Positions 9,586 to 11,803 of a DNA stretch of 42,444 nt are shown piece after piece. The notes beneath the pieces were generated by a model. That model was given only the letters and a program-made list of their open reading frames with translations, did not search any database and was not told the DNA's origin. Position 1 is the stretch's first letter, and each line of letters begins with the position of its first letter. Position numbers and translations under genes: made by a program. Origin of the DNA: Dethiobacter sp. (GTDB taxonomy: Bacteria > Bacillota > Dethiobacteria > Dethiobacterales > Dethiobacteraceae); contig JAGXTN010000045.1 in NCBI GenBank assembly GCA_018333455.1, forward strand, positions 1 through 42,444, written 5' to 3'.

Positions 9586-9626
9586 AAACAGTAGGAACCG
9601 ATCTAATGGATCGGTTCCTACTGTTT
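9586..9626. terminator. Bidirectional intrinsic terminator
   Basis: A perfect 18-bp stem (9586-9603 with 9609-9626) with a 5-nt loop and a T-run after it lies between the convergent LeuB-like gene and the TPR-like gene. The stop codon of the minus-strand gene (9618) lies inside the hairpin. Confidence 0.88.
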
Positions 9627-10559
9627 TTGCTGCTCCAGCTTCAGAAGTTGCTCCAAAGCAGCTAAGAGTTCTCTTTCTCGTAGTGCCAAGCGCATTTTTT
9701 CTTCCCGCTCCAAAAGGGCGACCAGCTGCAGACGAAGCGCTACTTCCAACCGTTTGCTAATTTTCTCATCCCTTAAGCAACTACGGTAGACTTGTATCGC
9801 GGTAGAATGATAGCCAAGTTTTTCTAAAGCCAAACCCATAAGATAATAGGACGGACTTATTAAGTGCTGGTTAGTTTTAAGCCGCTTCAGCACGTCGATA
9901 GCTTCCTCATAGCGTTGTTGTTTCAACAGTAATTCGCCGCGAGAAAAACGGAAAATATCTAAATCAGCATACTGGGAATGCTCAAGTAAACGCGAAGCGT
10001 CTTCAAGTTTTCCGTGGTTCTGAAAAATTTCCGCCGCCAACAATTCCAGCCCTTGAAAGTCGTTCACCAGACGGATCTGTCGGCCATCGCAGCCTGAGAA
10101 GACAGCACAAAACGCCACACCAGCCTCTTTGCTCAAACGGGTATACTCCCTTCTAAGCAATATCGTCTGCTCTATAGCTTGCAACTGTTCTTGTTGGTCA
10201 TGGCAACAAAGCGCCAAAGCAAAAAATGCGTCAGCCTGCGTCTCATCTCTGACTGTAATTTTACGGAATAATTCGGCAGCCCACTCTGTTCTCTCGTCAA
10301 GCAGCAGGCGGGAGCCTGCAAGAAAGCGTCGCTTGCTTTTATCTAATACCCGTCTGGCAAATAAATCCCTGAGCAACGTTTCTTTTCGTTGACGGTTTTC
10401 TTCTGCGCAACTCTCAAAGCCGGTCTCTAGCGGCAGTTCAGCCGGAATTATTTTCCCCGTAATCTGCTTTAGCCGGTTACGGGGCAACGGTAAAACAAGT
10501 ATCTTTGCAAACTTAAAAATTTTCTCCTCACTTATTTCCCAGAACAAGCGCAAGCCCAA
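9618..10559 (-). CDS. TPR-like repeat protein of unknown function
   Basis: No specific family is recognised for this 313-residue soluble protein. The C-terminal two thirds (about residues 80-300) are amphipathic helical pairs with tetratricopeptide-like spacing, for example RGELLLKQQRYEEAIDVLKRL and YYLMGLALEKLGYHSTAIQVYRS. This suggests a protein-interaction scaffold. There is no signal peptide or membrane segment, and the extreme C-terminus is a Glu/Leu/Gln-rich helix. The TTG start at 10559 is preceded by GGAGGG with 8-base spacing. The gene is a single unit, divergent from the protease-like gene and ending inside a shared terminator. Any functional role would be a guess. Confidence 0.65.
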   Translation of the reverse strand: MGLRLFWEISEEKIFKFAKILVLPLPRNRLKQITGKIIPAELPLETGFESCAEENRQRKETLLRDLFARRVLDKSKRRFLAGSRLLLDERTEWAAELFRKITVRDETQADAFFALALCCHDQQEQLQAIEQTILLRREYTRLSKEAGVAFCAVFSGCDGRQIRLVNDFQGLELLAAEIFQNHGKLEDASRLLEHSQYADLDIFRFSRGELLLKQQRYEEAIDVLKRLKTNQHLISPSYYLMGLALEKLGYHSTAIQVYRSCLRDEKISKRLEVALRLQLVALLEREEKMRLALRERELLAALEQLLKLEQQKQ

Positions 10560-10729
10560 GCAATGTCCCTCCTGTTAGCAATCTCTCGCCTGGATTCCTC
10601 TTCAATTTCTCTGGCAGTTATTTTCTGCTTGGATAGCTATTATTCCTTTTGATAGTAAAAATTTTTGCACCTCTTCTAGCTCTCGGCATACGATAAAAAA
10701 CACGGAAGTACGCTTGACGGGGTGAAGTG

Positions 10730-11710
10730 ATGGAAAAAAACATTTATCAGTTAGATGCAGCTCTAGCTAGGCCGCTCGCACCAACTACGGTGAGAAGCGA
10801 AGTTTTAGAGATAGGCGCGATCAGCGGCTTAGCTAATGCTGAACTGGCACTTTGGGTAAAAAAAAGCGGCCGTTCCACCGGCTACACAACCGGCCGTGTA
10901 GCTGTGATTGGTGCCACAGTAAATATTGGCTTCTCCTTTGGCCGTTCTGCTCAATTCACTCAGCAGATTATCACTTCAAAAATGGGAGAAGCAGGCGATA
11001 GCGGTTCTTTGCTGTTGGACGGAGCAAACCGTGCCGTTGGGTTACTTTTTGCGGGTAGTGCTAAAGCAACCATTTTTCACCCGATTGCAGATGTATTGCA
11101 GGCACTGAATATCCGGCTAACGACTCATGCAGACACGCTCCTCCCCCAGGAAAACGGTGAATTCAGATCATTATTTGAACTTTGCCAGTTCAGAGGGAAA
11201 GAACTGCTTCAGTTACCAAATGTAGTAGGCGTAGGAATCGGTAAAAAAATTAAGGCTGATCATGACACAGGGAAATTATGCATAACCGTGCTTGTCGCCC
11301 GTAAATTGGCGGCTACTCTCTTACGGGAAGAGGAAATAGTCCCTGCCATGGTTGGAGCCATTCCCACCGATGTAGTGGAATCCGGCAGATTAACTGCCGA
11401 TTTCCAGGGCGTCTGTACTAACCAGCGCCTAGACAGAAGAGTAAAAATGAGGCCGGCACAACCGGGAATAAGCATCGGACACTATTTTGCATCAACTGGT
11501 ACGTTCGGCGCCGTAGCTTATGATAATCAGAGCGGCGAAAAAGTGATTCTTTCCAACAATCATGTCCTAGCCAATGCTACCAATGGTTCAGATAGTCTGG
11601 CTAGGGTTGGAGATCCGATTTTGCAGCCGGGCAAACAAGATGGCGGTCAGCAGCCTGGCGACGTGATCGGCACTCTGTTGCGTGTTGCTCCGCTGCACTT
11701 TTTAAAATAA
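10730..11710 (+). CDS. Trypsin-like (Nal1-type) serine protease homologue with permuted halves
   Basis: The protein resembles the trypsin-like peptidases of clostridial genomes in which a His-box half (ILSNNHVLA) precedes a half with the catalytic Asp and GDSGS. Here the order is reversed. Residues 1-130 hold the normally C-terminal half: LDAALA with the probable catalytic Asp9, KKSGRSTGYTTG, and GDSGS with Ser91. Residues about 145-326 hold the normally N-terminal half: NVVGVGIGKK, IPTDVVESGR and ILSNNHVLA with His278. The product ends at APLHFLK, close to the point where a normal member would continue into a NIYQLDAALARP-like segment. All three triad residues are present, in order Asp-Ser-His. 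ATG 10730 has GGGGTGA 7 bases upstream. It may be a true circular permutant, the remnant of a tandem duplication, or a non-functional fusion. Confidence 0.7.
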   Translation: MEKNIYQLDAALARPLAPTTVRSEVLEIGAISGLANAELALWVKKSGRSTGYTTGRVAVIGATVNIGFSFGRSAQFTQQIITSKMGEAGDSGSLLLDGANRAVGLLFAGSAKATIFHPIADVLQALNIRLTTHADTLLPQENGEFRSLFELCQFRGKELLQLPNVVGVGIGKKIKADHDTGKLCITVLVARKLAATLLREEEIVPAMVGAIPTDVVESGRLTADFQGVCTNQRLDRRVKMRPAQPGISIGHYFASTGTFGAVAYDNQSGEKVILSNNHVLANATNGSDSLARVGDPILQPGKQDGGQQPGDVIGTLLRVAPLHFLK

Positions 11711-11803
11711 TCGGCATGATAAAAACACCAACCCCACCAGTTACTGGCAATAGAGACGTAGCCACTTTGAGATGTTAAACCGTGGCTTAAATTATCGCCT
11801 GAT

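Follow-up and report, generated by a model that had tools for sequence, protein, structure and literature searches.

The gene at positions 10730-11710 of the window encodes what we judge, with a probability of about 0.86, to be a Nal1-type serine protease of the trypsin fold that was circularly permuted in nature, most likely in a single event, and whose gene has stayed in working order. The window, i.e. the whole stretch of DNA analysed here (42,444 nucleotides), is one entire contig of a 2.26 Mb draft assembly (171 contigs) of Dethiobacter sp.

Gene and sequence features

The open reading frame occupies 10730-11707 on the forward strand, ends with a TAA stop codon (11708-11710), and has an alternative GTG start at 10727. 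The features discussed below are as follows; "ordinary" refers to homologues with the His-Asp-Ser order.

10719..10724, +, possible ribosome binding site GGGGTG, 5 nt upstream of the ATG, from sequence reading
10730..11710, +, putative gene for a permuted Nal1-type serine protease, 326 aa and a stop codon; 10 other full-length permuted homologues
10748..11122, +, Asp-to-Ser part, residues 7-131 (the C-terminal half in ordinary members), ordinary-HMM positions 215-338
10754..10756, +, codon of Asp9, putative catalytic Asp, DAALA motif; invariant in 11/11 permutants
11000..11002, +, codon of Ser91, putative nucleophile in GDSGS; invariant in 11/11 permutants
11123..11179, +, linker, residues 132-150, between what were the C- and N-termini; variable in length and sequence, relaxed dN/dS
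11180..11419, +, NAL1_N-like domain, residues 151-230 (the N-terminus in ordinary members), PF25608 E 4.4e-4
11420..11707, +, His part of barrel 1, residues 231-326, stopping where the ordinary His-Asp connector starts
11561..11563, +, codon of His278, SNNHVLAN; invariant in 11/11 permutants

Purine-rich sites equal to or stronger than GGGGTG precede most of the homologous permutant starts. An earlier sequence-only reading of this DNA had proposed to look for intact paralogues in the source genome; the gene is present there as a single copy. We also observed that the adjoining gene on the reverse strand (9618-10559) encodes a TPR protein (Pfam EccA1_N, 1.3e-9), a neighbour conserved in this genus and also in certain other genera of the family.

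The two halves are in swapped order

The sequence-only reading had placed Asp9 in LDAALA (within QLDAALARP), Ser91 in GDSGS and His278 in ILSNNHVLA, with the product ending in APLHFLK, and all of these are found in the ORF as described. The triad order in the 326-residue protein is thus Asp9-Ser91-His278, and the same Asp-Ser-His order occurs in all 11 permutants. The catalytic residues of clan PA, family S1, follow the linear order His, Asp, Ser (PMC3434108), which none of the 11 proteins has, although in all of them the three catalytic residues sit in recognised motifs.

When the permuted protein was compared with an HMM of 41 ordinary homologues, it matched in two blocks totalling 355.7 bits. 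Residues 149-324 aligned with profile positions 5-174, and residues 7-130 with positions 215-338, so that the order of the blocks is swapped. The sole segment absent from the permutant is the His-Asp connector of ~40 residues (about profile 175-214), which agrees with the earlier placement of the cut between His and Asp. In the converse comparison, one ordinary protein (L041), when doubled, gave a single 384-bit match to the permuted-family HMM at positions 8-325, spanning the junction, whereas the undoubled protein gave two matches. The swapped homologous blocks cover nearly the whole protein and the doubled sequence aligns end to end, a pattern that marks a circular permutation with hardly any other loss and supports the permutation reading first made from the sequence.

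Nal1-type homology extended over both halves, as indicated by the ordinary HMM and by phrog_20754 ("protease"), which matched the permuted protein with E 2.5e-69 as two stretches. Residues 30-128 aligned with residues 84-182 of streptogrisin B, in its second barrel (E 2.5e-6), and residues 146-302 with residues 62-228 of rice NAL1 (7y77; E 5.1e-5); with a profile of the permuted family, these matches strengthened to 1.9e-7 and 6.8e-7, respectively. With such matches, the motifs in the two parts are not there by chance. The NAL1_N-like region (151-230), however, comes after the Ser half instead of first. PF25608 (NAL1_N) scored 20.4 bits (E 4.4e-4) on the window protein, under its curated cut-off of 27, and exceeded that cut-off in two relatives (L064 and L070). 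The Pfam search of the window protein gave no match above threshold, and PADLOC gave no match. Profile searches that assume a single order score permutants as two half-matches and can thus miss them, as with Pfam here.

Among the genomes searched, the permuted order is confined to one bacterial family

A full-length permuted protein was found in 11 of 20 genomes of the family, colinear, stop-free and 51-81% identical to the window protein. A twelfth genome held a truncated copy only, and the remaining 8 of 20 had no detectable copy of the permuted protease. We note that the assignment of all 20 genomes to Dethiobacteraceae was inferred from records placing Dethiobacter in that family. A match to the permuted protein was present in 8 of the 12 genera, and the relatives carrying one include the metagenome-assembled genomes Dethiobacter sp. 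CROMO_SB3 and 'Clostridium' sp. CROMO_A_128.

In surveys covering 98 class genomes and 399 phylum genomes, homologues from outside the family matched as two reverse-order segments, and every fetched class or phylum locus holding both halves had the ordinary His-Asp-Ser order. The same was true of 50/50 IMG/VR loci with both halves and of all plasmid loci inspected. In the class of one nearest ordinary relative, the order was also ordinary, as judged by match order. One Gemmatirosa plasmid gave a single-piece colinear match and was considered as a second permutant, but this proved to be a run of tandem ordinary copies. Judged from these sequences, Ser-before-His is the norm only within one bacterial family, Dethiobacteraceae; it is not the usual order of the whole protein family, which would have refuted the sequence-only reading, as the homologues checked outside Dethiobacteraceae were all His-Asp-Ser.

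Conservation, selection and gene neighbourhood

Asp9, Ser91 and His278, together with the motifs GDSGSLL, SNNHVLAN and DAA(L/V)A, are invariant across the 11 permutants. Among close relatives, dN/dS was 0.12-0.15 for the Asp-Ser part, 0.17-0.27 for the NAL1_N-like part and 0.08-0.14 for the His part, and the linker was relaxed (0.23-0.96, compared to 0.08-0.27 in the other parts). The C-termini of the permutants coincide within 0-4 aa. In 10/10 relatives as well as in the window, the permuted gene has the same isocitrate/isopropylmalate-dehydrogenase gene next to it or nearby, and an AddB-like gene, named from sequence reading, is usually close by. By these sequence measures, the permuted gene is maintained under purifying selection in both parts.

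The sequence-only reading had also allowed for a dead fusion or for an assembly join within the ORF. The draft state of the assembly, with its 171 contigs, and a truncated gene in another genome of the genus would suit a misjoin or a dead gene fused from two broken tandem copies. Nevertheless, ten further genomes carry the same order as full-length, stop-free genes with an invariant triad, dN/dS of 0.08-0.27 and kept synteny, and the recurrence of this order at the same locus in other genera already refutes both, leaving them a negligible probability.

In the truncated gene (G002; L069:7092-7370), the bases equivalent to window positions 10938-11790 (~850 bp) are gone and ~70 residues are left, with the neighbouring genes intact. 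The truncation is either a true loss in a single lineage or an assembly fault in G002; a deletion would mean that the permuted protease is dispensable somewhere.

Two other relatives, G012 (L061:7282-8487) and G009 (L068:7092-8285), have an in-frame N-terminal extension of ~77 aa ahead of the permuted protease. The G012 extension is a CarboxypepD_reg domain (PF13620, E 4.2e-10), and that of G009 is a diverged relative of such a domain. Both are fused before Asp9, which shows that the new N-terminus tolerates additions.

Predicted structure and active site

AlphaFold2 was run with 47 rows, comprising three permutants and separately aligned half-fragments of ordinary members, unpaired between the halves. 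It predicted a single, mostly beta fold with pLDDT 89.8 and pTM 0.89; a run with the three permuted sequences only reached pLDDT 26 and was discarded. The modelled chain begins with a strand (11-15) just after Asp9 and ends with a strand at 312-319; the end of the linker (residues 132-150) runs into an N-terminal helix (143-160). The N-terminal strand next to Asp9 would close the first barrel, which is built mostly from the C-terminal part, and this closure would bring Asp9, Ser91 and His278 together. The structural check proposed earlier returned a confident single fold, and the triad would be expected to assemble in it.

By homology of the DxALA motif, we infer that Asp9 is equivalent to Asp102 in chymotrypsin numbering. 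The cut would then fall in the equivalent of the 99-loop, so a substrate cleft with a more open rim than that of ordinary members is predicted. The enzyme would cleave peptide bonds through the charge relay usual for serine proteases, and its function as a serine protease is predicted from the invariant triad, the selection and the model.

It is also conceivable that a conserved, folded permutant has turned into a pseudoprotease serving as a binding or scaffold protein. Chain ends so close to the catalytic Asp could perturb the active site, and the model is less confident around Asp9 (mean of 64 for block 1-10). On the other hand, triad residues are usually lost in pseudoproteases, and here the triad and the GDSGSLL, SNNHVLAN and DAA(L/V)A motifs have stayed invariant in 11 proteins whose identity to the window protein is no more than 51-81%. 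We therefore consider a pseudoprotease quite improbable.

Alternatively, the halves might assemble only between subunits, each active site being made of two chains in an intertwined dimer or in the oligomer known for Nal1-type proteins. Several solved NAL1 entries hold six chains of one sequence, and permuted chains could swap; however, the model, computed for a single chain, is already confident (pTM 0.89). This arrangement is unlikely, although it retains some weight beside the single-chain active site that we prefer.

Foldseek, which keeps chain order, aligned the Ser part of the model with streptogrisin B over ~102 columns (2.0 Å, ~34% identity, TMq 0.27), with NAL1 in fragments only (high rmsd, TMq at most 0.37), and with viral models at a best TMq of 0.40. 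The streptogrisin B and NAL1 matches were half-length only, and no solved or viral model among those listed shares the connectivity of the permutant.

Origin of the permutation

In trees of each half separately and of the concatenated halves (FastTree and fast IQ-TREE), the permutants were monophyletic among the ordinary members; we relied on monophyly alone, as support labels may have been shifted by re-rooting. A single permuted clade in the tree of each half makes one permutation event most likely, and on this phylogenetic basis the permutation most likely arose in the ancestor of those Dethiobacteraceae genera in which it is found. The nearest ordinary members in the trees include L041, L055, L070 and L035 (the His-Asp connector being very short in the last two), and they are not consistently class-mates of the permutants.

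Ordinary members have His-Asp connectors of anything between about 4 and 90 residues, which makes this connector the most tolerant site for opening the chain. We also observed ~5-15 residues in the ordinary proteins L035, L070, L089 and L104, compared to ~40 in most, a mark of a very plastic loop.

In the standard model of permutation by duplication, a gene is duplicated in tandem and then acquires a new start and stop (PMC3320104); this model fits the permutant best. In the likely route, an ordinary gene would have been duplicated in tandem and the copies fused, after which the outer halves would have been lost and the new ends would have opened in the loop between His and Asp. Ordinary genes in tandem do exist. 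In G211 (L127:749-2643), two copies lie head to tail, and the 63 nt between them, from the Ser half of the first copy to the NAL1_N start of the second, are about as long as the permutant linker. The Gemmatirosa kalamazoonensis plasmid NZ_CP007129.1 (L134:3001-5845) carries three ordinary copies head to tail. Moreover, the permutant linker retains the helix that starts ordinary proteins (residues 143-160).

Another route would split an ordinary gene into half-genes and re-fuse them in the opposite order. A relaxed linker between the halves fits both routes, and no fused tandem intermediate was found among the loci examined, which would favour fission and re-fusion. However, separate half-genes were recognised in no genome among the inspected loci, and both the tandem copies, with a spacer close to the linker length, and the retained N-terminal helix speak for duplication. 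We regard fission followed by re-fusion as unlikely, and tandem duplication as the better account. An open frame of 865 aa in G404 was considered as a tandem fusion and rejected, since it arises artificially from masked bases lying between adjacent genes.

Relation to known proteases and permutants

Nal1-type proteases (phrog_20754; rice NAL1, PDB 7y77, 8hau, 8pmg) share with the permutant the NAL1_N-like domain and the SNNHVLAN, DAALA and GDSGSLL motifs, and the better-matching ordinary members of the phylum are roughly 40-54% identical to it per half. The permutant differs from them in that its halves are swapped, the His-Asp connector is opened and largely lost, and a short linker connects the former termini. 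Streptogrisin B and other chymotrypsin-fold enzymes (clan PA, family S1) have a similar second barrel with the GDSG nucleophile, but their order is His-Asp-Ser and not Asp-Ser-His, and no structural match in chain order extends over the full length.

Few groups of enzymes have been studied as much as clan PA, and the His-Asp-Ser order serves as a mark of its classification. Natural permutants are well known among papain-like enzymes (NlpC/P60-related, LRAT, PPPDE, LupA; PMC10318531), where permutation also reorders the catalytic residues; these have the unrelated papain-like fold and a cysteine nucleophile. Saposin/swaposin and DNA methyltransferases are natural permutants explained by the standard duplication model, and are not trypsin-fold proteases (PMC3320104). 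A paper comparing clan PA structures makes no mention of permutation in its main text (PMC6524800), and a survey of circular permutations in nature names, in its main text, proteinase inhibitors and no trypsin-fold proteases (PMC2395249).

The open-access literature searched yielded no description of a trypsin/chymotrypsin-fold protease that is circularly permuted in nature, and within that literature a natural permutant of this fold is new. We think it probable, with moderate confidence, that this is the first natural permutant of the chymotrypsin/trypsin fold that is active, has the order Asp-Ser-His, is cut in barrel 1 before the catalytic Asp and is fixed in a bacterial family. If so, a natural permutant cut in the first barrel would mean that continuity of that barrel is unnecessary for the evolution of the trypsin fold. 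The new free ends would lie beside the active site, and two relatives carry a further segment fused exactly there. With ordinary and permuted members ~50% identical per half, and with tandem copies at hand, the steps of permutation by duplication become directly testable. We must also note that ordinary Nal1-type proteases were frequent on IMG/VR contigs classed as viral (L072-L126), a classification that we took as given.
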